Source: Isoetes taiwanensis
Lineage: Eukaryota; Streptophyta; Lycopodiopsida; Isoetales; Isoetaceae
Direction: 5' to 3'
Assembly (NCBI GenBank): GCA_021234155.1
Contig: JAJEKV010000050.1
Location: 2,489,842 to 2,553,841, forward strand
DNA: 64,000 nucleotides
The notes beneath the pieces are model-generated. The model searched no databases. It was not told the origin of the DNA and saw only the letters and a list, made by a program, of their open reading frames with translations. The position numbers and the translations under genes are program-made. Numbering within the stretch: position 1 is the first letter of the stretch; every line of letters starts with the position of its first letter. Of the stretch, positions 3,646-64,000 are shown piece by piece.

Positions 3646-5187
3646 ATCCTCTTATAGTCAATAGAGATTAACTATACATCTATTCATACAATGGTTGATC
3701 CTAGCTATCTTCTAATCATACAATGGTTAATCCTATGACTATCTAGGAAGTTATCTACGTACTAACCGGAATCATAGTTAGATCCACTCTCTCTCTCTCT
3801 GATTCTCCATCTTTTTTACTGGAACTGGGTTGAACAACAGCTCCTTCTCCACCAATCCCCGCCAATTCGAATTGGGAAAAATTGGGGCCCCAATTTGGCA
3901 TGCCTTGCCCAATCGATTTGGGCCAGGTGGCAACTCTAGATTGGTTATTATCACAACATATATAATCATACATCAACGTTATATTTAGTGCACGTGTCAT
4001 TTTCAGCAACATTCTAACGTTTGGTTTCCAGCTTCGTGAATGGCTTCGTCAATAGATAAAAAAATGGGAGAAAAAAAAAGGGAGGTCTATAGGCTCATGA
4101 ACTCCTCCGCTACGGGTTTTCTTTAGCCGACAGAGCGGCGACAACCGATTTGGGCAAATCCTTATTTTAGGCATAGCCTGCCTTCTAAGTTTGCCGATAA
4201 TATTTTGTTCTGTATACTCTTTGCTTGAGAGGCATCGGCTGCAGATCCCGATCAGTTCTTGGTCCAACAATATCATCCTTCAGATTTTTTCCTTTATATT
4301 TTTGTTCTTTCAAAATAAAGCCTTGCTTATTTACATACAGATGTCGATATGTTGGATTTTGGAGCATCCAATCGCATGTGGCAATTCTATTTTTGGTTTA
4401 GATTTCAAAATTTTACTTGCACAACTCTTTGTAATTTGGAGTTCAATGTTGCAGCACATAAACGTGCCTCAAGGTGAGCATAAAAATCTGATCCGTGATG
4501 GCCTTAGTTCCAACTCATGCAGGTGGCTGTCATGATTTTTTTGATTGGGGTGGATAAAAAATAGCTAGGTGCTGATGGAGACTCTTTATTAGGCTGGTTC
4601 TTATCAAGGTGTATATATATCAGATAAGTACATGGACGTGGTGCTATCCTAAGGGGACATCTCCAGCCAATGTAACTAAATTGTGTGGAAGTAAAATGAC
4701 TTGCATGCTCTGCATGCTTCAGATATGATCACGTCACATTAGATTTATAGTGCATTTTTACTGCATTGATGCATTTAGTTTTAACTAAGGTGGTGCATTA
4801 TCATGTGCATCATTGCTCATGTTTAAGACATATGAGATATGCGCAATGTCATATTCTATATGCCAACAAAAATATGAAGCCAGCTTCCATGTTACAGATA
4901 TCACACCTTCAAGGGAGCCTGCATTGTGATTTTAATAACATTTTTCTGATTGTTTCTGCTATTTCTAATGTTTGATATTGGTCTATTTTGTGCAGATAGC
5001 AGGATCTGCAGAAGCATTTGAAATATTTTCTTATCGGTGTAATTTATCTACTCAGAGCACAATTGATATTGGGTTATCAGGATAGCAGCAACATGTGTGA
5101 AGACCTTGAGTAACAATATGATGATGAATGACCCAGTATTTTCATTTGTTATGTTTGTTTCCACGAATATCATTACATACTTTGCAG
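3646..5187. other. Intergenic or intronic, nothing recognised
   Basis: Contains a short CT microsatellite near 3785-3800 and no recognisable gene. The part from about 4900 may be the intron upstream of the exon at 5188. Confidence 0.4.
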
Positions 5188-18619: not shown

Positions 18620-20157
18620 CTAAGCTAACACGGAAAGAAGAGCCTTCAAGTTATCAGAAGAGGATCCGCCTTCCATAGCCGCAGCTATGGCAGATTCCTT
18701 GAGCTTCACCATTCTCTGTTTAATGGCCCGCCCTTCAGCTCCATGCATCACCATATTTATCACCCTTTCAACCTCCTCTTCTTCCACAATATCTGCTCTG
18801 TTCTTCCCAAATCTGGCTCCCGCCTTCAAATCTTCCACAATTAATTTACAGTTGAGGCTCTGGTCTGAAAAGCAAGGAAACCCAATAATCGGCACCCCGC
18901 TGCATATGCTTTCCAGGATCGAATTCCAACCGCAGTGTGATAAAAATGCCCCAACTGCTGTATTACAAAGGATTTCCAGTTGTGGCGCCCATGAGACCAA
19001 TATGCCCTGTTCTGACGATTCTTGCAAAAATCTCTGTAGAATTTCTTCTGATACCTTGTCGGATTGCTCAGGCCTTAAAACCCACATGAAGGGCTGCTTG
19101 CTTTTTAAAATCCCCTTTGTCAATTGCACGAATTGTTGCTCTGATACCGTGGCAATGCTGCCGAAGGAAATGTATAAAACAGAGGCTTCGGATTTTGCCT
19201 GCAGCCATTCCAGACACTTGGAATCGTGTGATCTTAGGCTCCAGCTTCTTTTTCTAGCATCGATCACTGGAAAAAATGGTCCTGCCGAGATGAATTTCTC
19301 GCCCAATATGGCCCTCATTGCATCAAATGCCTGGGGTTCTAATTCATAGAACGAATTCACCAAAACCCAATCCGCGAGGCTGAATGCGTTGGAAAGCTCG
19401 ATCCAGAAGGATGATTCTGCATCGGATTTTACATTTTTTTGGAAGAAATAGGAAGGAAGATCTGCAGGGCGGAGGGATGGAATGCCGGGGATGGGTATGA
19501 GCTTGGAGCAATGGTCTGACAGCTCCGAATCTGCAAGGTTGAGTGAGAATTTTGTGTTAAAACTTAAAACAGATCTAAGCAGAAAGAAAAAAATTGCTGA
19601 TTAAAAAAAACACCTGGAATAGGCAGATCATTGCTGGAATAAAGAAGAGGGCATTGGTAATGCACACTGCTCCATGAGGCAGATCCAGGAAAATATAAGA
19701 CGCCAAGAAGCCCTTTATTTCTGGCCACGGTCAGGCAATGCAGGGGCATAAAGTAGTCCACCATAATGGCACAGAGAGGACATTCCGCCTCAAAACGGCC
19801 AACAAGTTTCTCGAGTTTATCTTGCAGAGAGACTAAAAGGGAGGCGAAGAACTCCTTTTCAATTTCAAAGCAGGATGCGTCGAATCCATAAGGGGTGATG
19901 AAAGGGAAGGGGAGCGGCTCCAAGCTGATGTCTAAATCCGCTGGAAATTGCCACTGCTTTAGCAGCTGCTTGTGGATGCTTTCTATATTCAGAATTGTGA
20001 CCTTGAGCCCTTTTGATGCCAATGATGTGCAGAGGTGCAGCAGAGGCGTAATATGTCCCTGTGCTGGTAGAGGCAGCATCAGTATATGTGACCTTGCCCC
20101 TTTCTTGCCCATCTCTGCTTCTCTAAGTTCTATATGGCTCACCATTTGGATCAGCAC
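18620..20157 (-). CDS. Family-1 UDP-glycosyltransferase (UGT), two exons, apparently intact
   Basis: This enzyme transfers a sugar from a UDP-sugar to a small acceptor such as a flavonoid or hormone, and is normally cytosolic. Exon 1 runs 20112 (or 20157) to 19614. The 83-bp intron 19613-19531 starts GTG and ends TTGCAG and splits an Asp codon. Exon 2 runs 19530-18620. From the Met at 20112 the protein is 469 residues, typical of the family; an upstream in-frame Met at 20157 would add 15. Visible landmarks are the catalytic His20 in PAQGH, the partner Asp119 in IMVDY, and a complete 44-residue PSPG box (residues 347-390) from WAPQ through HCGWNS to FSDQ. The final Gln usually indicates UDP-glucose as donor. 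The acceptor cannot be told. A MITE/MULE pair lies about 110 bp upstream of the first ATG. Confidence 0.93.
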
Positions 20158-20269
20158 TTCTGTAGATAAGTATACCAGCTCTGTAAATGTGGGACGTGGT
20201 CATCTTTAAACCATGGGCGTCTCCCTAGCACATCCCTTTTGTAGCTTTAATATGGCATTAGTATATTAA

Positions 20270-34949: not shown

Positions 34950-35528
34950 AGCGCATCGCCCACGGCATCGTCCGCGACAAATGTCACGACAAATGTCGGA
35001 CACATCACGCAATTTGCTTTGTGATGCGGCTAATCAAGCTATGTTCAAGTGTTTTGAGGTATCAGATTTTAGGTTGTTACACAAAAACTTGCTCACGATT
35101 TTAGGTTGCTTTCGAGCGGCATAGGCATACATAAATTTCATAACCGGTGAGAACCTCACGTGGTTTTGAGTGAGTAGAAATGCTCATAAAGCATATCTTC
35201 ACGGCATCGCGCGACAAATGTCGGACACAATCGCGACAAATGTCACGACAGTGGATGTCGCATCGCGGCGTCACGCGTGACATTACTGGAACATAAGACA
35301 CGCCGCATGCGGCGTGGCATCTGAACCCAGAGACGTCGATGCGTATTTGCCACGTGTATTTGCCGGTCGCATGTGATCTGGATTTTGACCGTTGACTATC
35401 ATTAATGCGGCGTGGTCTACGAGAACGCGTGACACGCGTCATGCGTACTTTCCGCGTGTCTTTGCCAAGTCGTAGGTGACCTGGCATGTGACCGTTGACA
35501 CTACGTCGCCTGCGACGTTAAAGATTTC

Positions 35529-35536
35529 TATATAAA
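35529..35536 (+). promoter_or_regulatory. TATA box of the CACTA first gene, copy A
   Basis: TATATAAA lies 71 bp before the ATG at 35607 and just after the GC-rich subterminal repeats. It is conserved at 58753-58760 in copy B. Confidence 0.6.
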
Positions 35537-35606
35537 CAACTCTTTCTCGGCCTTCATTGTTATTTTCTTTCGCTCCTCTTCCAGCCTAGCGCCTTTGCTG
35601 CCCTAC

Positions 35607-37275
35607 ATGGATCGCCATGGTCATCGGCATGATCGACGCCTGGAGATGGCCAGGAGACAGATTGATGTTGTCTTACCACCGGGGGAGGTTGGATATGCGG
35701 AACCGTCACATGTAAGTTCGATTCTTGTATTTAGTAGCCTAGACATATATAAAACTAGGAGAGGGCGTGTCTTGCGAGTAGTAAAAAAAAGCGTGTTTTG
35801 GGTCAAGGACCGCGGTTAAGCCTCCACATTGAGTGGAGAGGACCAGGTGTGCCAGGCCCAAACTCACCTTCATACCTTACTAAGTACAATGTAGATTACA
35901 AAATTGAGGTGTCGTGTAGTCAAGGTCATATGTCGACTTCACCTTGAGTGGAGGGGACTCTATGTATCGGGGCTAGCGCGTCTCAAAAGATCTTTATTGA
36001 AATTGAAACTTATATAAGGGTCGCACTTTTCGGAAAGGGCATGGTCGGCTTCACCTTGAGTGGAGAGGACTACGGTGTCCGCCCCCAGTCATCCATTTAG
36101 GTTTTAGGGTTTAGGGTTTAGGGTTTAGGGTTTAGGGTTTATGCTACCATATATTGTATCTATCCGCAGTAGTTCAAACTATTGTTCGGTATATAGTACT
36201 TACCTTTTGTAATTGGCGGAGGGACAAAATAGTTTCGCGATTGTAAAAAGATGTATGGGGCTGAAGAGATGACTTAGAGCGGTTGTTGAAGACCATCGAT
36301 AAGATTTGGTACATTTGAACAACCCACCCGGTTTGATGCTCGTCATGGATATCGGGTTGGTATACAATTATTATTTGTTTTTTTTTTTTAAAGGTATCTC
36401 TCCCCACCAAGTATATATTCAAGATGTTTATGATATCTAAATATGTAGGTAGATGATCTTTGATGTCTCCTCCAAACTAGATGTGGATTTTGGTTTAATG
36501 TTGTCCATAGAGGCATATGAAACCGGCGATGGCACCCGATTCATCAATAATGTGGATGGGTGCGGCTCAGCGGCCGAGTGTTCCCACAAGTGAAAGAACA
36601 CGAAGGGCTACAATCATGAGAACATTGCATGTGTCGCACATTTCCCAAGAACGGCTTGGCCTCACTTGCCCGGCGTGAAATTCTGAAGAATTGCAAAGAT
36701 TAGTCCGACCCTTTGTTAGGCAATCATGAAGACATTTGGCTTGTGGCGGATGGGCTTCTATCCCTATGGATCAAGAATTTGCTTATTGGGGAAGAAGATA
36801 CATCATTATCGCGGAGCCGCATTTGTCCGAGGCTGGATTGACCTTATCTCCGAAACTTGGCGTATAGAAGTGGGCCGAGACACCCACATTCCATTAATGC
36901 CATATCACGGAGGGTCCGAAAACGATTGGAAAACTTGGCAAACTTTGACTAAATATGCTTGGCGTATGAGGATTTATGGAATGAATTCCAATCTTTGCGT
37001 CGATAGGCGTGGGGGCATGTGATGAGGAGTTGAAGTTTATTGATGGTCGGCCCGGGGTTCATGGCAATATTGCGGGGTTCATCAACAGTTCTATTGACAA
37101 CCGTGGCTGCAATTGTGAATTTTTAGAGTGTCAAGGAGGGGGAGGAAGATTTTTTACAAGATGTGTAAAAAGCGGATATATCATGGTGTGTGATATTAAA
37201 AGCATAAACATTGGAGATGAGTTATTCATCAACTATCGCTATGATAGACCTCTCCCATTTGAGATGGAACAATAG
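35607..37275 (+). CDS. SET-domain protein gene of the CACTA element, copy A (frames broken as assembled)
   Basis: Exon 1 (35607-35711, 35 codons) encodes a basic start, MDRHGHRHDRRLEMARRQ, and ends at a GTAAGT donor. Intron 1 (35712 to about 36180) holds ~112-bp box repeats and telomeric repeats. Later coding includes DVSSKLDVDFGLMLSIEAYE (from about 36456). A SET-like N-lobe (36760-36900: AYWGRR, then EAG) is followed by a C-lobe in one open frame at 37009-37275 with GNIAGFINSSIDN, CNCEFLEC and DIKSINIGDELFINYRYD. SET methyltransferases have RFINHSCxPN and GEEL(T/F)xDYxY at these places; here His-Ser is Ser-Ser and the DY-type tyrosine region reads INYRYD, so activity is uncertain. The stop at 37273-37275 is followed by AATAAA words. 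Confidence 0.55.
35815..36075 (+). repeat. ~112-bp box repeats in intron 1 (copy A)
   Basis: CTTCACCTTGAGTGGAGAGG and variants start near 35821, 35934 and 36048. The same box at the same spacing occurs at 49785-50145 in the second element and at about 59060-59320 in copy B. Confidence 0.75.
36103..36140. repeat. Interstitial telomeric repeat, TTTAGGG x5 (copy A)
   Basis: Five perfect tandem TTTAGGG units lie inside intron 1. Copy B at 59347-59380 has about three. Confidence 0.95.
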
Positions 37276-37384
37276 TATTGTTGTACTAAAAAAAGGAATA
37301 AAGAGTTTTTTTTAATATGTTTTTGTCATTCATTGAGTCTATACAAATGGTTGTATGTATTTTATACTTATTACATTATTTGAC

Positions 37385-40300
37385 ATGATGGTTATCGTTG
37401 CTCTGTTTAATGAACTCATTCAGAGCGGTCTCCATCCCGATCCATTAGTTCTAAGTTACGAGGCAAAGGGAAACCTATCATCGTGAATTTCAAGCGAGGC
37501 GCACCAATATGAAGATATTGCATACAATCAATATGAAGAGGATGAAACTATTGACGAACCCAGAAACGAAGTCTTTAAAGCATGTTAGGGTACCGAAAAG
37601 TACATACACTAGCTTTCGATATGTTTTTTTTTTCATTAAAACTCTTCAAGAATTACGATATTGATTTAGATGATGTAGAGGATGGTGGTGGAGAGGATAT
37701 GGTAGAAGATGTATAGGATACCCTTTTTTGGACTTTTTAAAGGGACACCTAACATACGTCTTGATATGTTCTGCGATGACCCTATTGTTATGATGTCGAA
37801 TGGTGGTGGAAATATGGTAGAAGTTATTTCTTGCGTCTCGAACCTCTCCCTATTTTGTTAAAAGTTATTTCTTGCTAATTCTCAATCTCAAACCAAGTTC
37901 AAGTGGAGCAATGCAAGTGTCTCTGCTCTATTGAGGTGACATACTTATCAAGTCTTTCTATCTTACCACCATCTCCATCTTTTATCTTATCACTCTTAGA
38001 TCGCGAGGTTATTGCGACGAGAAGATCCTTCGAGAGAAGAACAATATGCCTAAATGGATCTCAAGTTAAGAAAATGATTCAAGCGACCGGCCTTGGTTAT
38101 AAAGTCATACATGCATGTCCAAATGATTGTATGATCTTCTATCCCCCTTAGAGCATGAGAAGTCCACTCATTGTCTCGTATGTAATGAGCAGAATCGAGG
38201 AATGACCTAAAGGGAAAAACGGTACCTCGAGAAGGTTATTCGACACTTTCCAATAATCCCAAGGTATATGCATCACCACTTCTTACAAATAGTTGTAAAT
38301 TCACTTATTTTCTGGTACTTATATGTTGCCTATAATTTATTCTATAGGTTAAAGTTGATGTTAGTTGCAAGACATTGGCTAGCCTAATGGACTTCCGCGG
38401 CTACACATGCATCTAGTGATGATGTGATCGAACTCCGGCGGCAGTGCGACTTGGAAGCATGTCGATGCGACATGGCGACTTTGGAAAAGAACCACGTAAT
38501 GATGCGTTTGGGCACGGCCACCGATGGCGTAAACCCATATGGTACACAATCGGTTTGCATGGTCTACATGGCGATGATGATAGTGAACTACAACATACCC
38601 CATGGTTGTTGATGAAGAGTGGGCACATTATGATGACTTTATTGATACACGGGAAAAAAAACCAAGTAATTTAGATGTGTACCTAAGAATAATTGTGGAT
38701 GAGTTACTCCTTTGTGGAACCACAGTATTCAGGTCTGATGCCCATAAAAATGGCGTTTTAATCTTAGAGGTATACTATTGTGGACTATGCATGACTTTCT
38801 GGGCTTCTCGAGAGTGTTACAGGTTTAAGACATCGGGGGCACTTCCCTTGCATGATATGTGGGGAAAAGTTGCAGCACCGTCACTCTAAGCATCTGAAGA
38901 AAGTAGTATCTGAGGGTTTTAGGAAGTATTTGCAGCTCACCCCCCTTGAAAGCGGCGTGCACAATTGGGTGGCACCATGACTATCTGAGAACCACCAAGC
39001 GAGAATTACCATCTGAGAATGGGGTGGCGTTGGGATAAGAAGGAAGAGGGGAAAATCCATGAGAAATCCGTAGGGGGCACCTGTACTGAGGAGGTCGTGG
39101 CCAGGCCTAGGCGATGAGAGATGAGGAATTATCTGATGGTGGCGAGGAAGCGGAGGAGGAAGTCTTTACTACCAATATGAAAAGGAAGTCACGTTTTTTT
39201 AGACTACCATATTGGACCGACCTATTGATTCAACACCTTTTAGACCCGATGCATATCTTCAAGAGCGTGGGGAAACTCTTTATGGAAGCATGTATTTGGT
39301 CAAAAAGACACAACAAATGCGGGATGGACCTTAAGGTAAGTAATACAAAGAAAGAGGCATGGATCCGGGGTGAAGGGCAACCACTTCCTCCGCGGCAAAA
39401 TGGGTTATTGCTAGGGCTGACCATCGAGCTATTTATGATGATTTAAGGGCCCTTAGAACACCAGCCCCGGTTATATGCAATCATTGCGAACCGCATTCAC
39501 AAGTAGTGGGGAAATTTGGCCCGTTTTAAAGTCCCATGGTGGCATAAGTTCTTGCATGTAAGCAATTGAAGTCCACATATATGCACTACTATAAAATATA
39601 ACCCATAACTTATATTTGGTGTTTGGATCATGCAGTTCTTCATGCCCACGACCTTTAGGGAGTTTTAGACAAAAGGACCATTGGAGGCAATAAGTGCCCT
39701 ATCAAAGGTCATAAGGTTGTTACCCATGTTGATTTAGTGGTCCCCGTCTATTTTATTTGTGGCTAAGTTTTTTGTTTTGGACCTCATAGGTGGATGTGTA
39801 AAAAAAACTATCTTAGAAAGAGCGAAATTGAAGAGATGAAAGTGAAAATGGCGAGGCATGTTGCTTGTTGGAGAAGGAGTTTCCCTCTGAGCTTTCTTGG
39901 CAGTCAAACCCATCTTTTGGTACATCTTATTGAGGAAGTGGAGCTTCCTGAGGCTTGTACATGCCCGGATGGATGTTTTTCTTGGAAAGGTTTATGAAGG
40001 TATTGAAGGATATGGTGCGTCAAAGAGCATCCCCCAAGGTAGTATGGCGAGGGGATGGCTTGCGAAAAGAGTCACTTTTCTATATGGCGAGAATATATTT
40101 CCGCCGTACATCCGGATGCACCTAAACACTTATGGAGTGATGAAGGGGCGAAGAAGATTGTGGGGGTAGTGGCGAGAAGGCAATGGTATCAGAAGTCATT
40201 TCCGCTGATATGATCATTAAGGTTAATCAATTTCTTCTTTACAATTCGGCACCAATGGCAAAATGGATTGCTCGTTATGAGAGCGCCAAAGGAAGAAATG

Positions 40301-41293
40301 GAAGAGAAGAGGCATGAATGGAGACGACATAATAGAGCGAGCCCGTGTACCACGATGGATATGAACCCTTGGGACAAGATGGAAAGAGAATGGGTACTAC
40401 AGGCTTTGACCGATGCATATCACAAGGGGAGTATATTACAAACTTCTGGAATGGGCATACGCACAAGGTGTCATGAAAAAAAGTAGTTGCAACAAATTAT
40501 GTTGATGTAGAAATCGAGTATTTTCTTTTGATGTTATTGTATCTATTGACATTAATGGTGCTTTTGGCGGTATATATCTTACTCCTCGATATGGTGGCAT
40601 GGGACCCACTATCGTGTGAGTTCTCTTGACATACGGGGAAGACTTGTGGCTAGCGGAGTCATGGCATCATTCACGATGGAGTTTCAATCAAGTGTTGCCG
40701 TCGTAATCGTCGAGGAAGCCACGTGATTGGGTGGAGGGTTAAAGACTATAATGGAGGTGGATGTTGGTGGCAATTTTAAGACCTTCATATTCGATGTCGA
40801 TTGGTTTGACCTTCAATTAAGGGGGGCGGGCCCTCTGATGAAAGTATGATAGAACAAGTGGCTTTTTCATTTGTCAACTCTAGCAAGATGTACCACGGTA
40901 GTGAGGCGGCTTGTCCTTCGGACAAGCGTGAGCAGTACACACATACACATATCCACTTCAAAATTTAGACCATCAATATCAATCTCCGTCCGGCTTCTTT
41001 GACCAGATTTTTTTCTTTCTACCGTCGACAAGACCCAACATGGTGGTTTATCATACAAACTACAGGGGATGCCCAATATTCCAAGGTGTTGTGCTAGAGG
41101 AGTCAATAGCGTCGCGAAGAGCCCTCTGGCGGATCAAGGCATTCAAACTCACCGGGAAAGCGAGCATCAAGAGGTTGGACCACCAGCTCTCATCGATCTT
41201 ACACGAGCAATTCCCGCGAAATCTGAGATGTACTTGGGCATTTTAATACAAATGTTGGCAATGCTAACAATGGCGACTCTAGTTAGCACCTAG
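37385..41293 (+). CDS. CACTA Tnp2 transposase gene, copy A (frames broken as assembled)
   Basis: Transposase_21 landmarks appear in order. They are GLGYKVIHACPNDCMIFYPP (38090-38150) with the CLVCN cysteines, the PRNDAFG/DGVNPYGTQ region (38490-38550), and LDVYLRIIVDEL (38670-38710). Next come LRGILLWTMHDF (38765-38800) and YWTDLLIQHLLDPMHIFKSV (39215-39270), matching the family's NLDVMHIEKNV site. DUF4218 follows: MKVKMARHVACW (39838), LVHLIEEVEL, then the WM-FLERF and EGS-A-GWLAKES signatures across frames to 40080. A probable DUF4216 region (VEVDVGGNFKTFIFDVDWF across frames, 40750-40815, then GMPNIPRCCA) lies near the stop at 41291-41293. The catalytic DDE set cannot be verified with broken frames. 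Confidence 0.8.
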
Positions 41294-42139: not shown

Positions 42140-45100
42140 GTTGGGTGAACATGAGTGGTCTTCGGCGAGGAAATTGGTCCCTGGGGCAATGTCGGCGTCC
42201 CGAGTCCATTTGCGGAGAGGCGATCGGCGGTTCGGGGGGCCCGAGATCGCCCGTCCGGCCCCGGGGGGCCTTGGGGAGAGGAAATCGGGGCAAAAGCGGC
42301 TTAGGGGGATTTTAGGGTCTTCTCTCAGTCAACACCCCCCCACCCCGTCAAGTCCCCGCGCAAAGGTCCTTGAATCGACAAGGAGAGGGCCTCCAAAATG
42401 TAAACCACAGTGGGTTGCCGGGTTCTAGAAGGGTTTTGCGTTTTGGGGGCGAGACTTGATCCGCATTGCACTGGGACTGGCCGAGAAAATGCGGCCAGAG
42501 AATCACCGAACAAGAGGCCCGACGGGCGGAGTTTGGGCTGTCCTTCTCCGATGTGGCAAGTAGAAGTCGAGGGCTTTTGGAGTGGCAAGACATTCATAAA
42601 TTATAATTAATGCATTGTGCGAAAATAAATTCTGATTTTTTGCCAGCTGGATTCCTAATCCATCTCAACACACACCCAATTTTGAGAAATTTTGGAGAAG
42701 GTCTAGGTCAAAGGGTTAGCTAAGGTCAAAGGAATGGAGTTTGTGGGATCGTTGTACTTGGGGTTGACCTTGGCTCATTTGGGCGTTATACTTGGTCTAA
42801 GATTGCATTGAGAATATAAGCATCATAACTATTAGAATGAAGATAAATGATTCTGAGAAAAAGCATCATAACTACTAGAATGAAGATAAATGATTCTGAG
42901 AAAAAGCAAAAAAAAGACTAGTGCGGGTTGGGTGGGTTGGTTTGCTTGTGATGATGGTTGTGTTTTTCAATTATCAAGGCATATGGATAGAGAGAATGCC
43001 CTTGTTCAACGGACTCCCTAAAGCTATTTGACATGGATGGCATAATTAACTTGTAATGAACTGAATTAAGGGGCAAAGCAACTTCGGGGGAGTTTAGGGT
43101 CCCAAAATAAAATCAACACCCCCCACTCCATGTCAAGACGGTGCAAGGTCCGACCAAATCGACAAGGAGAGGGCCTCCAAACGTAAACCACAGTGACTTG
43201 CCCGGATTCTAGAAGGGTTTTGTTTTGGGGGCGGTTTTGGTCTTCGGCCCGCGAGAACTTGGTCCCTAGGGCAAGCGTCGGCGTTTTGAGTCCATTGGCG
43301 AGCCAAATCGCATTCAGGAGAGGGAGGTCACCGTCCGTCCCCGGGGCCTTGGGGAGAGGAAATGGGGCAAGCAACTTCGGGGGATTTTAGGGTCCGTGCT
43401 CTGGCGTCAACACCCCCCCCACTCCATCAATCCGGGCGCAAGGTCCCCCGGAATCGACAAGGAGAGGGCCTCCAAAAACGTAAACCACGTGGGTTGCGAG
43501 TTCTAGAAGGGTTTGCGTTTTGGGGGCGAGACTTGGTTGCACTTCGGGACCTGGCGGAAAGCTGCCAGAATACGAACAAACAACCGGCGGGCCGGAGTTT
43601 GGGCCTGTCCTCCTCCCGATGTGGCAAGTAGAAGTCGAGGGCTTTGCTGATGGCAAGACATTCATAAATTAAGCAATTAATGCATTGTACGAAAATAAAT
43701 TCTGATTTTTGCCGGCTGGATTCTAATCCATTTCCAGCACCATGCACCAATTTTAGAAATTTTGAGAAGGTCTAGGTCAAAGGGTTAGCATTAGAGCGGT
43801 CAAAGGCCGGGGCCCGTTGCGGGGCAGCGTGGCACCCTTCCCAAGTCAAACGAGGCCGGGGACCTTGCGGGGATCCCTCACAAGAGGGAGAGTCCAGGAC
43901 CCCAGGCGGGATCAAAAAGTTCTCGAGGCAGCCCTTCTGGCCGCGCTCCCAGGGGCTGCGCTAATGACCACCCTCCGGGCGGTTCCCCTATCCGGCCAAA
44001 TTGGATCCTCCGCTCGGGGGCCCCTCTTGGGAAGGCCCAAAAGATTCCAGATCGGTCAGGAGAACTTGTCAAACCATGGGGCGTCCGAGGTTCGGCCTTG
44101 TAGAAACCGCAATGTCTTGTCGTTCGACACCTAGAGGCTCGGGAATGGCAAATCGACCCTGCCAAATCATCCGAATGGCGAAATTACCCTAGGGAGCAAG
44201 TTACAAGGTGGGTTTGCAAAGAAAGAAACACTCACGCCCTCCCGCGGCCGGTATCCCGCATCCACATCTTAGGCCAATTGACTACGAGTGTGATGGAAGT
44301 GAGCTACTTTGGCTTCTTGGAGGTCGGGTGGTCTTAAGCCCGCGGAACTTGGTCCCCTAGGCAATGTCGGCGTTAGGAGTCCATTGGCGAGAGCCAAATC
44401 GCGATTCCAGGAGAGGGAGGTTGCCCGCCCGTCCCCGGGGAGCCTTGGGGGAGAGAAATCGGGGCAAGCGGCTTAGGGGGGATTTTAGGGGTCAAGTGCT
44501 CTGCCGTCCAACACCCCCACTCCCACGTCAAGTCCGCGGCGCAAGGTCCCTCCCCGATCGACAAGGAGAGGACCTCCAAAGCGTAAACCCGTGGGTTGCC
44601 CGCCGGTTCTAGAAGGGTTTGCGTTTTGGGGGCGGAGACTTGGTCCTGATACACTTGGGACCTGGCGAGAAGGCTGCAGCCGAGAATACGGAGCAAGGGG
44701 AACTGATGGAGGCGGAGTTTGGGCCTGTCCTCCTCCCGATGTGGCAAGTAGAAGTTTAGCGCTGGCAAGACATTCATAAATTAATTAATTAATGCATTGT
44801 CTGAAAATAAATTCTGATTTTTTGCCAGCTGGATTCCTAATTCATCTCCAGCACACGGCCCAATTTTTGAAATTTTTGGAGAAGGTCTAGGTCAAAGGGT
44901 TAGCATTAGAACGGTCGGGGCAGCGGGTTGCGGGGGAACAGAGGTGGCACCCTTCCCCAAGTCAAGCGAGGCCAGGGGACCTTGCGGGGATCCCTCACAA
45001 GAGGGAGAGTCCAGGACCCCAAGAGGCGGGATCCAAAAAAGTTCCCGAGGCAGCCCTTCCTGGCAGCGCTCCCGGCTGCACGCTAATGACCACCCTCCCG

Positions 45101-47660
45101 GAGCCCGGTTCCCCTATCCGACCGTTGGATCCTCCGTTCAGGGGCCCCTCTTGGGGAAGGCCCAAAAGATTCAGTCGGTCAGGAGAACTTGTCAAACCGC
45201 GGAGCGTCTGAGGTCGGCCTTGTAGAAATCGCATTGTCTTGTCGTTAGGGCACGCAGGAGGCTCGAATGGAATAGCCAAATCGGCCAGGAATAGGCGAAA
45301 TTACCCTAGGGAGCAAGTTACAAGGTCGGTTTTGCAAAGAAAAAACACTCACGCCCTCCGACGGTATCCCAAATCCACATCTTAGGCCAATTGACTACGA
45401 GTGTGATGGAAGTGAGCTACTTTTGGCTTCTTGGAGGTCGGGTGGTCTTAACAACCCGCGGAACTTGGTCCCCGGGGCAATGTCGGCGTTCTGAGTCCAT
45501 TGGCGAGCCAAATCGCGATGGGAGAGGGAGGTCCCCGTCCGTCCCGGGGCCTTGGGGAGAGGAAATTCGAGGGCAAAGCGGCTTAGGGGGGATTTTTAGT
45601 CCCGCTCAAGCGTCAACACCCCCACTCCGTCAGTCAAGTCCGCGAGCGCAAGGTCCGCCCGAATCGACAAGGAGAGGACCTCAAAAGCGTAAACCACAAT
45701 GGGTTGCGGGTTCTAGAAGGGTTTGCGTTTTGGGGGGCCGTAGACTTGGTCTGTTACACTTGGGACTGGCCCAGAAACTGCGGCAGAGAATATGGAGCAA
45801 GGGAACCGGCCGGAGCAGGAGTTTGGGCCTGTCCTCCTCCCAGATGTGGCAAGTAGAAGTCGGGGCGCTTTTGCGATGGCAAGACATTCATAAATTCGTA
45901 ATTAATGCATTGTCACGAAAATAAATTCTGATTTTTGCCGGTGGATTCCTAATCCATCTCGGCACACAGGCCCAATTTTCGAAATTTTCAGAGAAGGTCT
46001 AGGTCAAAGGGTTAGCATTAGAGCGGTCGGGGCAGCCCGCGGCAGGAACCGCAGCTGGCACCCTTCCCAAGTCAAAGCGAGGCCCGGGACCTTGCGGGGG
46101 ATCCCTCACAAGAGGGGGGAGAGTCCAGGACCCCAAGAGGCGGGATCCAAAAAGTTCCCGAGGCAGCCTTCTTCGGCGGCTCCCAGGGGTGCGCGCTAAT
46201 GACCACCCTCCGGGGCCAGTTCCCCTATCCGACCGTTGGATCCTCCGTTCATGGGCCCCTCTTCGGGAAGGCCCAAAAGATTCCAGTCGGTCCGGAGAAC
46301 TTGTCAAACCCGAAGGGAAGAGGTCGGCCTTGTAAGAAACCAAGCGGTTGTCTTGTCGTTCGGGCAATCGGGGAGGCTCGAGGAATGGCAAATAGACCGC
46401 CAAATCGTCGAATGGGCGAAATTACCCTAGGGAGCAAGTTACAAGGTGGGTTTGCAAAGAAAGAACACTCCGCGCCTCCACGACCGGTATCCCCATCCAC
46501 ATCTTAGGCCAATTGATTCTGAGTGTGATGGAAGTGAGCTACTTTGAAAAGCTTCTTGGAGGTCGGTGGTCTTACGCCCCTTTAACTTGGTCCCCGTGGG
46601 CAATGTCGGATGTTAAAGTCCATTAAGCGAGCCAAATCAGCGGTTCCGGAGAGGGAGAGGTCGCCCGTCCGTCCCACGGGCCTTGGGGAGAGGGAAATTC
46701 CCTCGCGGCCAGGGGATTTTAGGGTCCGTGGGTCACGGCATCAACACCCCACTCCGTCAAGTCCGCGGCGCAAGCTCCCCGAATCGACGAGGAGGGGCCT
46801 CCAAAACGTAAACCACAGTGGGTTGCGGGTTTCTAGAAGGGTTTTGTTTTTTGAGGCGAGACTTGATCATTGCACTTGGGACTGGCCAGAAGCTGCGGCC
46901 AGAATACGAACAAGGGGAACCGCGGGCGGAGTTTGGGCCTGTCCTCCTCCGATGTGGCAAGTAGAAGTCGGGGGCTTTGCGATGGCAAGACATTCATAAA
47001 TTACGCAATTAATGCATTGTGCGAAAATAAATTCTGATTTTTGCCGAATATTTGGATTCCTAATCCATCTCGGCCTACGGCCCAATTTTTCGAAATTTTT
47101 GGAGAAGGTCTAGGTCAAAGGGTTAGCTAAGGTCAAAGGAATGGAGTTTGTGGGATCGTTGTACTTGGGGTTGACCTTGGCTCATTTGGGCGTTATACTT
47201 GGTCTAAGATTGCATTGAGAATATAAGCATCATAACTATTAGAATGAAGATAAATGATTACTGAGAAAAGCATCATAACTACTAGAATGAAGATAAATGA
47301 TTCTGAGAAAAGCAAAAAGACTAGTGTGGGTTGGGAGGGTAGATTTGGTTGCTTGTGATGATGGTTGTGTTTCGATTATCAAAGGCCCTATGATGATGGA
47401 TAGAGAAATGCCCTTGTTCAACACTCCTTAAAGCTATTTGACATGGATGGCATAATTAACTTGTAATGAAGGCGGAATTCGGGGCAAAGCAACTTCCGGG
47501 GAGTTTAGGGTCCCGGCTCTGGCGTCAACACCCCATGTCAAGAACCGCGGTGCAAGGTCCTCGACCAAATCGACAAGGAGAGGGCCTCCGAAGCGTAAAC
47601 CATGTGACTTGCCCGGATTCTAGAAGGGTTTTGTTTTGGTTTTACGCTCCCTAAAGCTAT
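42140..47660. repeat. GC-rich tandem array of ~1.1-kb units
   Basis: The marker GTCTAGGTCAAAGGGTTAG occurs at about 42702, 43771, 44887, 45994 and 47107 (spacing 1069, 1116, 1107 and 1113). GACAAGGAGAGG...CCTCC and GGCAAGACATTCATAAATT follow the same periods. Three full units span about 43235-46540 with partial units at each side. A ~525-bp block (42709-43233) recurs at 47114-47638, bracketing the full units. Frames within it are short, disagree between units and are not treated as genes. Confidence 0.9.
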
Positions 47661-55512: not shown

Positions 55513-56189
55513 TTTTTCCCCTACACGTCGCATCGCGGCTATTATCCACTTGTCTTTTTTGCCGCGTGGCTTTTCTCTGGCGGATTTTGAATTTTCCGCA
55601 TGTATATTCCACGCGTGTCCGCGTCGCGTCACGGCGATATACCGTCAACTTTTACGCGCGTGTATATTCCGTGTATATTCCACGTGTATATTTCGCATTA
55701 ATACATTCCCGATGTCACGTCATGTAGCGTATACGTGAAGCTTTTCGGCTGCAAATTGGATTTTTCTTTAGATGCTGCGCGAATTAATGCATCGTCCTTA
55801 TTTCACGATGTCCGTGGCATCGTGTCTGTGACGTCGTATCCGCGATATCTGGCGTGAGTCAATGTTTGCACCTAATCAAAGTGGAGTTTCTTCTTCATAT
55901 CATCAAGCCTCACGAGAGAAACATTCAGTTTAAATTCCTCTTTGGTTTACCACTCTGTGTGGCTACAATAAACCACTTCATGATCTTCGCCTTTCATCGC
56001 GAACCATTATAGAAGCATCGCCTATATGTTGATGGAGCATCCACTATGAAAGAGGCCAAAATCCATCTTGTAACTTAGAATTTCTTTACTCGAGATTCCT
56101 TTTAGTTCCTCGCTATGACATTTTTTCAATATGCACAATCTGGTTGCACTACTTTGATAAATGAGATTTTACCTTCGCTCCTCAAGATT

Positions 56190-56880
56190 AGAAGGTAAAT
56201 ATAGTTCTGAACTATTAAGGTAGTTAGTTGTTAAGTTAGTTGTCCCATTGGGCAGGTGTCCTATTTAGTTGCTTTCCATCTTTTTCATCACCTCAAGATG
56301 CATCTCTTTCTCTTTCCATTGTTGAAGCCAAGCCCATCCACCCTCTTCCCTCCACTTGTTCTTATTTCCAATTGGTCTTTTATTCAAGTTGTGTTGGCTC
56401 AAGAGAGTGCGGAATTTCGCTTAAGGCCCCTCGTGTTCGGGATTGTGAGGCTTAGTGCTGCTGTGAGGCCCTCGTTTGGTTGTGAGGAGGTCCTCCGGGA
56501 TGTGAGGCCCCTCATACCTGGAGTTAGAAGCCTTAGTGCCTGGGCTGAGCCCTAAGGGTTCTTAACTTATCTTCTTGGTTTTTTGCAAAACAACTCAAGA
56601 GCTTGTTGTCATGGTTTGATGAAAGCTGCAGCTCATAGGCACAAAAAATGAAGATCTATAGTGAAGGCACTTTCAAACTTGAGTTCTTCGCTAACTTTCT
56701 TGTTTAATGTAATTGTTCACTCAACAAGGCTAGTCGAAGATGAGGGTATACTTTAGCATTGACAAATGTTGCTATTATGGTCAGGGTTTTTCTAAAACCC
56801 GGAAAGAGCCAGGTTTTAATCCCGCCATAATGGTCGATTCATCAAGCATTGTTTATCGCTTGGTATCAGCATGATTTCTT
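56190..56880 (+). mobile_element. LTR-like stretch, copy B
   Basis: This is the copy-B counterpart of 33000-33690, with a degraded GAGGCCCTCGT minisatellite (56420-56550) and TGGTATCAGC kept at about 56862. Confidence 0.35.
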
Positions 56881-56964
56881 GTTTGGTTTCAAAGAGGTGC
56901 CTTTGAGGGTCAACATTATTTACATGTTTGGTTTCAAAGAGATGCCCGGGAGGGTTTTATCCAA

Positions 56965-57268
56965 AGGTCAATCTTTCAAGAGCTCAAGAACTGAATTTGA
57001 ATTGTGGGACTTTGAGCCCTTTTTGATGTTAAGGATGTGCGTAGGTGAAGGAGAGGCGCATTATGACCTTGTGCGTAGGCAAAGATCATCAAGATATGTG
57101 ACCTTAACCCTTTCTAATATCTCTCGGCTTCCTCAAACTCGGGATGTGGATGCGCATTTCTTTCTAAATGGATGAGCATTTGAGATAAGTATAACAACAG
57201 CTCAGAATGTGGGATCGGTCATGTTTAAACCATGTATGCCTCTTAGCACATTATCCTATTCCCTACAT
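56965..57268 (-). pseudogene. Fourth copy of the UGT 5' end (in duplication copy B)
   Basis: Counterpart of 33780-34079. The start region near 57115 is scrambled (the minus strand no longer reads ATGGCCAAG cleanly), and the leader and upstream words remain, for example GGTCATGTTTAAACCATG. Confidence 0.7.
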
Positions 57269-58858
57269 TTAAAACCACATCAATAAAAAGAAACAAAAAG
57301 TACTTTGTGGAATAGTGCATTTTTGTAGTTTGCTATCGGTTTTAACATGTCAATGTCCATTCTTTAATAAGAACTAGTAAAGTGTACGGGCGCTACGACT
57401 AATGTCCTTGCATGTTTTTTTACTCGGCCTTCAATATCCATATGTGCAAATTTGACAATCCACGATACCGATATCGGGTAATAACTTATTACACTATTTT
57501 AACGCTTTAGTTGTCATGCATTAGTTGGAGCAAGTGACTATAGTTTCACCTTAATGACAATAATATTGCTTGTTTTAAATTTATATAGGCCTATTTGTGC
57601 TATGAATATTTTTGAAAAGCAGATGAATTTAGTGATGGACATGGAGTTGAGATGGAGGAGCTTATGTATGAACAAGGTAAAGAATCGGGTTTGGGTTTCT
57701 GATTGTTCTAATCAAGTTGATGCGTGGATGCAACAACCCTTGCAAAAGTTTTCAGGCTGTTTGGAGTCGATATTTGGTATTGAAGCAACTTAAATTCTAT
57801 CTTTGATATAACCATTATGGTAGTTTTGAGCTCGACATTAGCCCTCGGTTGATCCAGAATTTTGAGCTCATAATTTAGCTTCTGGTTGATCCGTGAGAAA
57901 GAGAAAAAGAAGGAATTAGAAATGAATTATGCGCGGATTTACCTTGTGAATTTCTAAGCAACGAAGATTGGGTAGTCAAAAGTGGACTGTATATCCTCAG
58001 CCCAACATCTTAGAGAAGCAAATAAAAAATGCAATCAATGAGGAACTTGGTGTCTAGGTATATAGTGGAGAACTCTGCTTCTCAATTTTACCTCAAGAAA
58101 TCCAAGGCATTAATGTCCTATGTGTCAAAGCTGCCCGGATCAAAATTTGCCTAAAAACGCCTTATCGCCTAATTCGCATCGCCAAATGTCAATGCACAGT
58201 CGTGGACTACACGTTAATTTGCTTTGTGATGCAAATTAATCAAGCTATGTTCAAGTGTTTTGAGGTATGTGATTTTAGGTTGTTGGCACAAAACTTGCTC
58301 AGATTTTTAGGTTGCTCGCAACAAAATAGGTATACATAAATTTCATAACCGGCGAGAACCTACGTGGTTTTGAGTGAGTAGAAATGCTCTATAAAGCATA
58401 TCTTCACTGCATCACCACGACAAAAATGGGGTACTGTTACCACAAATGTCACGATGTGGATGTCGCGATGGGCGACGAGTAGTGACATTGCTGTCCGCCA
58501 CGCCGTCATAAGACACGCCGCATGCACGCGGACGCATGTAACCCGCAGACACGCCAGCACGCATACCGGTTAATGCGGTACCGCTGTGTCGCATGTGATC
58601 CGGATTTTGACCGTTGACTATACCGCCGCGATGCGACGCGGGTCTACTTAACGTATGACACGCCGGGCATTTATTTCGCCACGCGGTAACGCCAAGTCGA
58701 GGTGACCGCATACCGCCGTTGGACACCGCCGCCGGGACATGCTAAAGATTTCTATATAAACAACTCTTTCTTGGCCTTTCATTGTTATTTTTTTTTCTTC
58801 CAGCCTAGCGCCTTTGGTGTTCCTTCAAACCATATCTTATACTTGTTGTCGCCTCTAC

Positions 58859-60515
58859 ATGGATCGCCATGGTCATTAAGATGATCGATGCCTGGAGATG
58901 GCCAGGAGACAGATTGATGTTGTCTTACCACCAGGGGAGGCTGGATATGCGGAACCGTCACATGTAAGTTACTGATTCTTGTATTTAGTAGCCTAGACAT
59001 ATATAAACTAGGAGAGGACGGTAATCATGAAAGTAAAAAAAACAGGTGTCAAGGGTCAAGGACCCGGCCGCCTCCACCTTGAGTGGAGAGGACCGTGTGT
59101 GCCAGCCCAAACTCACCTTCATACCTTACTAAGTACAATGTAGATTACAAAATTGAGGTGTCGTGGTAGTCAAGGTCATATGTCCATTTCACCTTGAGTG
59201 GAGGGGACTCTATGTATCGGGCTAGCTGCCCAAAAAAGATCTTTATTGAAATTGAAACTTATATAAGGGTCGTGACTCTGAAAGGGCATGGTTGGCTTCA
59301 CCTTGAGTGGAGAGGACTACGTGTCCGGGCCCAATTCGGTCCATTTAGGATTTTAGGGTTTAGGGTTTAGGGTTAGGTTTATGCTACCATATATTGTATC
59401 TATCACAAATCGCTCAAACTATTGTGCAAGATATAGTACTTACCTTTTGTAATTGGCGAGGGACAAAATAGTTTGGCATTGTAAAAAGATGTATGGGGCT
59501 GAAGAGACGACTTAGAACGGTTGTTGAAGACCATCCGATAAGATTTGGTACATTTGAACAACCCACCGATCTGATGCTCGCCATGGATAATGTGTTGGTA
59601 TACAATTATTATTTGTTTTTTTTTTTTAAGAGTATCTCCTACCAAGTATATATTCAAGATGTTTATGATATCTAAATATGTAGGTAGATGATGCTGATGT
59701 CTCCTCCAAACTAGATGTGGATTTTGGTTTAATGTTGTCCATAGAGGCATATGAAACCGAAGCAGTAACCCGATTCATCAATAATGTGGATGGGTGCCGC
59801 TCAACGCTGAAAGTGTTCCCCCCGCGTGAAAGAACACGAAGGGCTACAATCATGAGAACATTGCATGTGTCGCACATTTCCCAAGAACGCTTGGCCTCAC
59901 TGCCCGAGCGTGAAATTCCTGAAGAATTGCAAAGATTAGTCCGACCCTTTGTTAGGCACCGCAAGACATTTGGCTTGTGGCCAGTAGACTTACCTATCCC
60001 TATGGATCAAGAATTTGCTTATTGGGGAAGAAGATACATCATTATGCGGAGCCGCATTTGTCCAGAAGCTGGATTCGGCCTTATCTCCCAAGACGCCAGA
60101 TAGAAGTGGAGCGGAGACACCCACATTCCATTAATGCCATATATGTGTCCCGAAAGTAATGCATTGGAAAACTTGGCAAACTTTGACTAAATATGCTTGG
60201 CGATGAGGATTTATGGAATGAATTCCAATGCCAAAGGCCGATAGTGTGGGGCATGTGATGAGGAGTTGAAGTTTATTGATGGTCGTGTGGGTTCATGGCA
60301 ATATTGAGATGGTTCATCAACGCTCTATTGACAACCGTGAGCTTATGCAATTGTGAATTTTAGAGTGTCAAGGAGGGGAGGTTTTTTTTTTACAAGATGT
60401 GTAAAAGCAAGAGTCATATATCATGGTTGTGTGCTATTAAAAGCATAAACATTGGAGATGAGTTATTTATCAACTATCGCTATGATAGACCCTCCCATTT
60501 GAGATGGAACAATAG
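58859..60515 (+). CDS. SET-domain protein gene of the CACTA element, copy B (frames broken as assembled)
   Basis: Exon 1 (58859 onward) is interrupted by a CGG-to-TAA scramble yet keeps the GTAAGT donor. A frame at 59493-59620 encodes VVEDHPIRFGTFEQPTDLML. The frame at 59717-60103 (128 codons, intact here though broken in copy A) runs from DFGLMLSIEAYETEAVTRF through MRTLHVSHISQERLASLP to EFAYWGRRYIIM and EAGFGLISQDAR, the last fitting a SET N-lobe. The C-lobe (60250-60515) is split by shifts, but SINIGDELFINYRYDRP is exact. Comparing copies shows which breaks are private to one copy. Confidence 0.55.
59347..59380. repeat. Interstitial telomeric repeat (copy B)
   Basis: TTTAGGG units, about three and one degraded, in the same intron position as in copy A. 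Confidence 0.9.
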
Positions 60516-60634
60516 TATTGTTGTACAAAAAAAAAAAAGGAATAAAGAGGTTTTTTTTTTTTTTAATATGTTTTTGTCATTCGTGAGTCTATACAAATGG
60601 TTGTATGTATTTTATACTTATTACATTATTTGAC

Positions 60635-63600
60635 ATGATGGTTAATAACGCTACTTCCTCGCTTTTAATGAACTCATTTAGAGCTTTGCGCCCATCCCGA
60701 TCCATTAGTTCTAAGTTAAGGTGCAAAGGGAAACCTATCGCCGTGGAATTTCTGCCGAGCGCACATAATATGAAGATATTGCATACCCAAGATCAACCTA
60801 AGCGAAGAGGATGAAACTATTGATTTAACCCGAGAACGGTTTTCGGACGAAGCCGATGCTCGATATGTTGCACGCCTTCAAGAATTACCCGATATTGATT
60901 TAGATGATGTCGAGGATGGTGGTGGAGAGGATATGGTAGAAGATGGGATACCCTTTTCGAGGATTGGTCGCATCGACGATGACCCTATTGTTATCGGGCG
61001 TAAACGCAGTTATTTCCTCGCGCCTCGAACCTCTCGCTTGTCGGCAGGCTCAAGCTAACTCTCAATCTCCAAACCAAGTTCAAGTGGAGCAATGCAAGTG
61101 TCTCGCTTCTATTGAGGTGACATACTTATCAAGTCTTTTCTATCTTACCACCATCTCCATCTTTTATCTTACCACTCTTAGATGCCAGTGTTATTGCACG
61201 AGAAGATCCTTCCAGAGAAGAACAATATGCCTACCGATGCATCTCAAGTTAAGAAAAATGATTCAAGCGACCGCCTTGGTTATAAAGTCATACATGCATG
61301 TCCAAATGATTGTATGATCTTCTATCCCCCCGCCGAGCATGAGAAGTCCACTCATTGTCTCTTGTATGTAATGAACCGAGATACGTGAATGACCTAAAGG
61401 GAAAAACGGCACTTAGAAGGTTATTCGACACTTTCCAATAATCCCAAGGTATATGCATCACCACTTCTACAAATAGTTGTAAATTCACTTATTTTCTGAC
61501 TTATATGTTGCCTATAATTTATTCTATAGGTTAAAGTTGATGTTCCGTTGTAAAGACATTGGCTAGCCTAATGGATTCTCACGGCCACACATGCATCTAG
61601 TGATGATGTGATGCGTAGTCCCGTTTACAGTAAGTTTTGGAAGCATGTCGATGCGACATGGCCCCGACTTTGAAAAGAACCACGTGAACGCGGCATTTGG
61701 GCCTGGCCACCGATGGCGTAAAACCCATATGGTACACAATCGATCGCATGGTCTACATGGCCGCTGATGATAGTGAACTACAACATACCCCCATGGTTGT
61801 TGATGAAGAGTGGGCACATTATGATGACTTTATTGATACCTGGAAGAAAACCAAGTAATTTAGATGTGTACCTAAGAATAATTGTGGATGAGTTACTCCC
61901 TTTGTGGAACATGTGTATTCAGTGTCTACACATGCCCATAAAAATGACGCTTTTAATCTTAGAGGTATACTATTGTGGACTATGCATGACTTTCCGGGCT
62001 TGCCGAAAGTGTTCCTCGGTTTAAGACATCTGGGCACTTCCCTTGCATGATATGTGGGGAAAAGTTGCAGCACCGCCACCTAAGCATCCAAGAAAGTAGT
62101 ATACGAGGGTTTTAGGAAGTATTTGCCGCCACGCACCCCTTCGAAAAGCAAAGCAGTAGACACCCGTGGCATCAGACTATACGTAACCACCAAGCGTAAT
62201 TACCATAACGAGAATGGGGTGAGCGTTGGGATAAGAAGGAAGAGGGGAAAATCCGCAAGGGGAAAACTGTAGGGGGCACCTGTACGAGGAGGTCGTGAGT
62301 CACCCAGACAAAGGAGGATGAGGAATTATACAAAGGTGGCGAGGAAGCCGCTGAGGAGGAAGTCTTTATCGCCAATATGAAAAGGAAGTCTGCTTTTTAT
62401 AGACTACCATATTGGACCCAATCTATTGATTCAACACCTTTTAGACCCGATGCATATCTTCAAGAACGGGAAACTTTTTTATGGAAGCATGTATTTGGTC
62501 AAAAAAGACACAACAAATGCCGTGATGGACCTTAAGGTAAGTAATACAAAGAAAGAGGCATGGATCCGAGGTGAAGGGCAACCACTTCCTCCGCAAAATG
62601 GGTTATTGCTAGGGCTGACCATCGAAGCTATTTATGATGATTTAAGGGCCCTTAGAACACCAACCGGTTATATGCAATCATTGCGAACCGCATTCACAAG
62701 TAGTGGGAGTCGACCGGTTTAAAGTCCCATGATCGCATAAGTTCTTGTGATGTAAGCAATTGAAGTCCACATATATGCACTACTATAAAATGTAACCCAT
62801 AACTTATATTTGGTGTTTGATCATGCGCTCTTCATGCCCCCGACCTTTAGGGAGTTTTAGACAAGGGACCATTGAGGCAATAAGTGCCCTATCAAAGGTC
62901 ATAAGGTTGTTACCCATGTTGATTTAGTGGTCCCCCCGCCTATTTTATTTGTGGCTAAGTTTTTGTTTTGGACCTCATAGGTGGATGTAAAAAAACTATA
63001 CCCAAAGACTAAATTGAAGAGATGAAAGTGAAAATGGCGAGGCATGTTGCTTGTTGGAGAAGGAGTTTCCACGAGCTTTTGGACACCAAACCCATCTTTT
63101 TGGTACATCTTATTGAGGAAGTGGAGCTCATGGAACCGTATATGCCGATGGATGTTTTTCTTGGAAAGGTTTATGAAGGTATTGAAGGATATGGTGCGGC
63201 CAAAGAGCACGCCCCGAAGGTAGTATGGCGTAGGGATGGCTTTGCGTAAAGAGTCACTTTTCTATATGACAGAATATATTTGGGCCGACATCCGTGATGC
63301 ACCTCGCTTATGGAGTGATGAAGGGACGAAGATTGTGGGGGTAGTGGCGTAAGGCAATGGTATGCGTAAGTCATTTCCACCGATATGATCATTAAGGTTA
63401 ATCAATTTCTTCTTTACAATTCGCACCAATGGCAAAATGGATTGCTCGCTATGAGAACGCAAAGGAAGAAATGGAAGAGAAGAGGCATGAATGGAGACGA
63501 CATAATAGACGAGCCCCGCACTCGATGGATATGAACCCTTGCCCGACAAGATGGAAAGAGAATGGGTACTACGTGCTTTTGACCGATGCATATCACAAGG

Positions 63601-64000
63601 GGAGTATATTACGCCTATTTTGAATGGGCATACGACAAGGTGTCATGAAAAAGGTAGTTGCAACAAATTATGTTGATGTTTTAAATCGAACCAGTATTTT
63701 CTTTTGATGTTATTGTATCTATTGACATTAATGGTGCTTTTGAAGATATATCTTACTCCTCGATATGGTGGCATGGGACCCACTATCGCGGTGAGTTCTC
63801 TTGACATACACAGAAGACTTGTGATCGCGGAGTCATGGCATCATTCGTTTTATGGAGTTTCAATCAAGTGTTGCCGATCGTGAATCGCCGTGAAGCCACC
63901 CGTGATTGGGCTCGGGAGGTTAAAGACTATAATGGAGGTGGATGTTGGTGGCAATTTTAAGACCTTCATATTCGATGTCCATTGGTTTGACCTTCATTAA
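60635..64000 (+). CDS. CACTA Tnp2 transposase gene, copy B (partial, frames broken as assembled)
   Basis: Several Transposase_21 parts read better than in copy A. One frame at 61767-61915 encodes YNIPPWLLMKSGHIMMTLLI, then LDVYLRIIVDELLPLW, a close fit to the family's YNLPPW...DVYLxPLVDEL. LIQHLLDPMHIFKN or its equivalent is at 62426-62470. DUF4218 begins at 63022 with MKVKMARHVACW, then LVHLIEEVELMEPYMPMDVF. The region corresponding to DUF4216 is reached just before the window ends. Confidence 0.8.

Follow-up and report, generated by a model that had tools for sequence, protein, structure and literature searches.

A conserved SET exon upstream of Tnp2 in CACTA transposons of Isoetes taiwanensis and its predicted place inside the transposase gene

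The question raised by this locus is what a SET-like exon does within a plant transposon. The window, i.e., the whole analysed stretch of 64,000 nt of Isoetes taiwanensis DNA, contains two decayed CACTA-type (Tnp2) transposon copies, in each of which a SET-like exon precedes Tnp2 on the + strand, and the original prediction interpreted this exon as a separate SET gene in the slot of TNPA. We show here that three lineages of the element have conserved the SET exon under selection, and that in every listed case with both parts it precedes Tnp2 on the same strand. The reading that we prefer, with a probability of roughly 0.55, is that these elements possess a CACTA (En/Spm, Tnp2) transposase gene with an extra SET exon, which would be used by alternative splicing and whose product would act at the element against silencing.

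In each copy, repeat-rich 5' sequence and a TATA-like box precede exon 1 (35 codons, GTAAGT donor), which is followed by the SET-like exon and Tnp2, and the predicted succession of a promoter, a 35-codon exon, a SET-like exon and a same-strand Tnp2 was found at 35.2-41.3 kb (copy 1) and at 58.4-64.0 kb (copy 2), the coordinates of the parts being taken by eye from the sequence. The 5' subterminal repeat region of copy 1 (35160-35520, + strand) consists of short GACGT/ACGTC-like repeats that can be read directly, and it is homologous to a part (about 4000-4700) of the repeat-dense 5' region of locus L081, which begins with a terminal repeat in contig C1040. It is followed by a putative TATA-like box of the element promoter (35529-35535, + strand, a consensus match) and by exon 1 (35607-35711, + strand), which starts with the ATG at 35607 and ends after 35 codons in phase 0 at GTAAGT. 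Intron 1 contains a TTTAGGG-type interstitial repeat (36100-36142, + strand); such plant telomere-type repeats were also observed in intron 1 of copy 2 (~59345-59380) and of L029. While the 35-codon exon and the SET exon had been recognised correctly, a second exon at about 36220-36354 (+ strand) had been missed; it is Transpos_assoc-like (CxCxxC), frameshifted in copy 1 and intact in L029 and L081. The SET exon (36449-37275, + strand) is likewise frameshifted, with intact counterparts of 273 aa in L029/L006, L011, and L016. About 20 nt past its stop codon lies an AATAAA poly(A)-like signal (37297-37302, + strand), which is also present in copy 2 and L029 and was not seen in lineages A and B introduced below. 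The decayed Tnp2 (Transposase_21) region extends from 37424 to 41250 (end approximate, + strand), matches Tnp2 of L021 with a best E-value of 1.7e-34 (tblastn), and is followed by a DUF4216-type part. In copy 2, exon 1 (58859-58963, from sequence and alignment to copy 1), the frameshifted SET exon (59684-60515) and the Tnp2 region (60700-64000, start approximate, by alignment to copy 1), which is cut by the end of the window, are all on the + strand.

Although the original prediction counted two cases, the segment 32664-40820, comprising flank plus element, corresponds to 55857-64000 at 85% identity, and therefore one insertion was duplicated together with its surroundings. Since two of the three larger family copies compared (L027, L029) depart from the sequence of copy 1 at 34366, both window copies look truncated there. 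The CACTA terminus expected on them was not found, and neither copy shows a recognisable terminus within the window: the lineage-A end pattern gave four weak matches, all inside the Tnp2 region (0.97 expected), and a combined A/W pattern gave none. Moreover, many small indels break the reading frames in both copies, and a Pfam scan of five raw window open reading frames gave no match at E<=1. A majority reading of 20 loci (one being copy 1) plus copy 2 was tried for restoring the frame and was rejected, as the frame stayed broken. Copy 1 differs from L029 at 515 of 5300 positions (window 35501-40920), and these differences affect 22.3% of the positions no more than 2 nt away from CG or CHG sites vs 4.4% of the others, i.e., they are five times denser near such sites. 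Because the majority reading gave no frame and the differences are concentrated near CG/CHG sites, intact relatives were used as the basis of the analysis. A bias of this kind is what methylated sites would give through miscalls or deamination, and the frame breaks in the assembly, which was made from Nanopore and Illumina reads (PMC8566536, in the part of the article at hand), may reflect methylated DNA instead of genuine decay. In the surroundings, a 109-nt repeat occurs in four copies (20039, 27428, 33865, and 57049), two of which are only 61-62% identical, along with neighbouring repeats, which suggests that the element copies are surrounded by host segments that are themselves repeated. 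Open frames resembling a plant UDP-glycosyltransferase by eye lie at 18620-20199 on the minus strand.

As for the identity of the exon, the SET motifs named in the original prediction are present in a single frame at 37033-37275, reading KFIDGRPGVHGNIAGFINSSIDNRGCNCEF...DIKSINIGDELFINYRYD, and this unaltered stretch of 80 aa scores just above the curated Pfam SET cut-off (E=1.2e-4, 22.9 bits vs 22.4). The region of copy 1 was matched in all 40 genome places scored (best 40 of 422 candidates; 1,658,258,908 bases in 1110 contigs searched), one being copy 1 itself and the remaining 39 showing 90-93% identity. Furthermore, profile searches of the genome, for SET with 72 matches, among them host SET genes (scoring of the best 150 out of 521 candidates), and for Tnp2 with 167 matches (best 150 of 2312 candidates scored), revealed open-frame SET matches directly upstream of Tnp2, where Tnp2 is Transposase_21 (PF02992; E=9.6e-76 in L021, 2.7e-56 in L022). 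The intact SET exons fall into three lineages: lineage W, to which the window belongs (L029/L006, L011, L016; 273 aa), lineage A (L021, L023, L049; 274 aa), and lineage B (L022, L026, L051, L053; 278-279 aa). The intact L029 protein shows 63% identity to copy 1 (best segment E=4e-81) and 70% to copy 2 (best segment E=2e-103), and between lineages the identity is 61-66% (W-A), 45-47% (W-B) and 48% (A-B). All three exceed the PF00856 cut-off of 22.4 bits, with 27.3 bits for W (E=5.2e-6), 32.6 for A (E=1.1e-7) and 29.6 for B (E=9.5e-7), so that the predicted SET match holds for the raw window as well as for its intact relatives. A profile of the element proteins aligned with seven host SET domains over 53 columns in the C-terminal half (hhalign, E=3.5e-6, probability 88). 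Searches against PDB sequences returned nothing at E<=1 for the lineage-B protein (phmmer) and a best SET chain at E=0.94 in a further search, and NCBIfam gave sub-threshold matches only, with a SET-type protein family among them, matched in the same region (E=0.08). A first AlphaFold model reached a pLDDT of 28.6 and a second one, trimmed to the SET core, 51.8, with five host SET rows in its alignment. This weak second model matched the MLL1 SET domain best in Foldseek (E=1.9e-4, partly circular owing to these host rows), and the 50 rows shown by VIA-align were SET or PR-domain chains with Z up to 7.6 (EZH2), a result that was left out of the proof of SET identity, the model being weak. Judged from profile and alignment evidence, the element exon encodes a SET protein.

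The splice phases, which were read from the sequence, place this exon within a larger gene. The best Pfam hit of exon 2 is Transpos_assoc (PF13963) in all three lineages, below the curated cut-off in each (E=4.7e-5 in A, 1.9e-5 in W as represented by L029, 2.8e-5 in L081, and 0.019 in B). Exon 1 comprises 35 codons in phase in the window copies and L081, it is out of phase in L029 via an indel, and its join to exon 2 in lineage B has no clear solution from sequence. Lineages A and B have a phase-0 end of exon 2, and their SET and Tnp2 exons each start in phase 0 after AG; in lineage W, exon 2 and the SET exon meet in phase 0, and the Tnp2 start after TTCAG (37424 in copy 1) is in frame by eye. 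The donors of exon 2 are weak (GTGCTT in A, GTTGGT in W), and the SET frame closes with a stop codon. Judging by these phases, the SET exon belongs to the 5' part of the transposase gene, where the Transpos_assoc-like exon precedes it and the Tnp2 exon follows, and the simplest reading would make it an alternative last exon of this gene. The reading of SET as a gene of its own that stands in for TNPA is accordingly dropped in favour of an exon within the transposase gene; moreover, lineage A has further open segments downstream of Tnp2, common to L021 and L023, where TNPA would be, and SET is thus not obviously in its place. These downstream segments matched no Pfam family at a meaningful score.

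The mechanism that we propose would start from one promoter and a transcript opening with exon 1 and the Transpos_assoc-like exon, as the splice phases suggest. Splicing would either end in the SET exon, with its stop codon and, in the window's lineage, its poly(A)-like signal, or skip this exon and continue into Tnp2, so that SET protein and transposase would receive the same DNA-binding start. This shared start may guide the SET protein to the subterminal repeats of its own element, where it could modify or occupy the local chromatin, or else methylate a transposition protein, and silencing would be escaped; in the main sub-variant, it would act at these sites without catalysis, much as a competitor would. 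In maize Spm, tnpA and tnpD are made by alternative splicing (PMC1636069), and TNPA reactivates a methylated promoter (PMC10398659; PMC1636069), as stated in the accessible parts of these articles; alternative splicing and anti-silencing are hence supported by analogy.

Whether the SET protein could act as an enzyme depends on its active site. The NHS motif reads NSS in all 12 aligned rows, as the original prediction had noted for the window, and isoleucine replaces the cysteine that follows, so that catalysis is not assured. GxG and the final tyrosine are invariant in this 12-row alignment, whereas a second alignment contains L062 with SLG and L067 with GYS; overall, all three lineages retain GxG, YxG, the motif's asparagine and the final tyrosine, apart from a few exceptions in single rows. 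These observations bear on a serious alternative that we favour less, namely that the SET fold was kept and methylation lost, leaving a protein that partners the transposase by binding DNA or histones, or one that competes with host SET proteins. The altered motif in all rows together with the isoleucine argues for it, as do frames that stop a few residues past the core, without a post-SET cysteine cluster; however, the residues retained across the lineages are more than a bare scaffold would need. Furthermore, plant ATXR5/6 depart from the NHSC form as well and are nevertheless active. Returning to the proposed element-directed anti-silencing function, its most far-reaching version holds that an autonomous plant CACTA element makes, by alternative splicing, a SET protein with the DNA-binding start of the transposase, which would serve as a self-addressed anti-silencing modifier with NSS as a working variant of the motif; this version is tentative and we regard it as rather doubtful in its entirety.

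An improbable alternative is a splice from the SET exon into Tnp2, which would yield a single SET-transposase fusion protein with a SETMAR-like layout. It draws on lineage B, in which a phase-0 GT (GAG followed by GT) just before the SET stop could join the phase-0 Tnp2 exon in frame; this donor is weak, however (GTCCTT, GTTCTT), no phase-0 donor was seen by eye shortly before the SET stop in A or W, and the AATAAA past the stop in W argues against such a read-through as well.

The relation between SET and Tnp2 was followed across the genome. Among the matches listed, 44 of 150 Tnp2 places are preceded within 4 kb by a SET match of the same orientation, 42 of these at 905-1278 bp, and no SET match was found downstream or on the opposite strand within 4 kb of Tnp2. 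The count comprises 150 of the 167 Tnp2 matches and 178 SET places (96 from one search with 152 matches and 82 from another with 156), leaving out duplicates across both lists and the last 33 rows of the 156-match search, one of which (C1106:2505499) by eye also pairs with a listed Tnp2 place. The predicted co-occurrence is borne out in its constant order and strand at these 44 places and does not extend to the other 106 of the 150 Tnp2 places, which lack a listed SET match; conversely, 134 of the 178 SET places have no listed Tnp2 match within 4 kb. Since only the best 150 candidates (of 2312 for Tnp2) were scored, partnerless places demonstrate neither absence nor universal pairing. Tnp2 is 53% identical between lineages A and B, similar to their SET exons (48%), as would be expected if both had travelled together since before the split. 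The dN/dS of the SET exon is 0.14-0.32 in 8 of 13 pairs, in which lineage W is represented via a 125-aa stretch (L005) and within-W pairs are left out, and the other five are saturated at silent sites; by this measure the SET exon is under purifying selection, and it is unlikely to be a passive passenger. That it is a captured host SET fragment carried along in the manner of Pack-CACTA elements is accordingly very improbable, for although capture of host DNA is known for CACTA elements (PMC8616336, available portion), order, orientation and exon phase are constant in three lineages at 45-66% protein identity and dN/dS is well under 1.

The ends of the elements were determined most clearly for lineage A, in which the terminal inverted repeats begin with CACTA. 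Its 5' end, CACTACTAGAGAATGG... / CACTACTAGAGAATGGGCTGTTTGCGACG, occurs at 24 genome places vs 0 in a reversed control, and its 3' end, ...TCTGTAGTAGTG / ...GACGTCGCAAATGGCCTCTTCTGTAGTAGTG, was found at five of eight loci examined (L034, L035, L036, L038, and L040). Two elements of 11.6-11.7 kb (3' coordinates by arithmetic) carry both CACTA ends with SET and Tnp2 matches between them, C1064:2947050-2958642 with TAC/TAC flanks and C1059:97433-109116 with AAT/AAT flanks, the latter pairing being less sure as the span contains a second 5' terminus at 104484; the SET exons of both are frameshifted. Matching 3-bp flanks were obtained in two of four lineage-A cases tested, while C996 and C1080 do not pair, and a single such match arises by chance once in 64. 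The anticipated CACTA ends with 3-bp duplications are thus documented for these two lineage-A elements and not for C996, C1080 or a lineage-W pair of termini on C503. This pair (~12.6 kb apart) was considered as an element and discarded, its flanks being unequal (AAA, GTG), and no SET or Tnp2 match occurred in the 6 kb examined between the two termini. The lineage-W terminus CACAACAAGAGAATGG... was found at 609 genome places at up to two mismatches vs 0 in the reversed control and represents a very large family whose ends read CACAA instead of CACTA. In C1040, one such terminus, likewise beginning CACAA, precedes the intact SET and Tnp2, and the corresponding 3' end was not found in C1040:12366001-12374500, the preceding 5.7 kb being left out. 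Element ends of lineage B were not found. Hundreds of termini of the SET-CACTA group are present in this lycophyte genome. A stop of L021 and L023 at a poly(A) run was considered as a new type of end and rejected, because 9 of 14 loci run on with further element sequence (L034-L040, L044, and L045, the last overlapping L040; L041-L043 are too diverged); L021 and L023 are therefore truncated at the poly(A) run in the 3' subterminal region. Downstream of Tnp2, L022, L024, and L025 have a common repeated sequence, which by eye is the same as an array of about 1.1-kb tandem repeats at 42300-47640 of the window, and this array may be part of their 3' region.

A selected SET exon within the transposase gene suggests that these jumping genes bring their own tool against silencing chromatin. 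Few transposons are known with chromatin enzymes, and such cases allow tests of how mobile DNA fights silencing. Here the SET-like domain would be an exon placed to borrow the DNA-binding module of the transposase rather than a neighbouring passenger. With three diverged lineages and intact copies in one genome, it becomes testable whether a plant transposon directs histone-modifying machinery at itself, and also whether Spm-style alternative splicing is a general route to such tools.

Among known systems, SETMAR is a chimeric gene of the host in which the transposase is of the mariner type. It resembles the present case in the association of a SET domain with a transposase (SETMAR, or Metnase; PMC4593633, accessible part), and it differs in that here a multicopy transposon with Tnp2 is concerned. 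Pfam detected no mariner-type transposase and no Harbinger nuclease family in the intact transposase reading frames, the sole transposase family being Transposase_21. SET domains in DNA transposons are already in print, as HarbingerS and MuDR transposons of Phytophthora carry SET genes (Kojima and Jurka, 2014, as cited in the accessible text of PMC12730594). These are, like the elements described here, DNA transposons with a SET gene besides the transposase, but they belong to other superfamilies and an oomycete host, whereas here SET is predicted inside a plant CACTA Tnp2 gene. Among the titles and abstract openings listed, with Repbase Reports and subscription papers beyond reach, we found no report of SET in a CACTA element. 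Fungal EnSpm elements carry a TET/JBP dioxygenase (PMC12730594, same extract) and are likewise CACTA-type elements with a chromatin-modifying enzyme thought to counter silencing; TET/JBP, however, acts on DNA methylation, in contrast to the SET domain here. VANDAL elements with VANC, and Spm with TnpA, also encode a protein that acts on the silencing of its own element (PMC10398659, available portion). For the SET-CACTA elements, in contrast, we infer anti-silencing. To our knowledge, VANC and TnpA are not SET proteins.

The closest relatives are the En/Spm-type CACTA elements of plants, with which the present elements have in common Tnp2 with DUF4218 and DUF4216-like parts, subterminal repeats, a Transpos_assoc-like exon and, in lineage A, CACTA ends with matching 3-bp flanks. 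Alternative splicing, described for maize Spm in the accessible part of PMC1636069, would be a further likeness and is proposed here. They differ from En/Spm in that the terminus of the window's lineage begins with CACAA, not CACTA, and in the additional SET exon that separates the Transpos_assoc-like exon from Tnp2.
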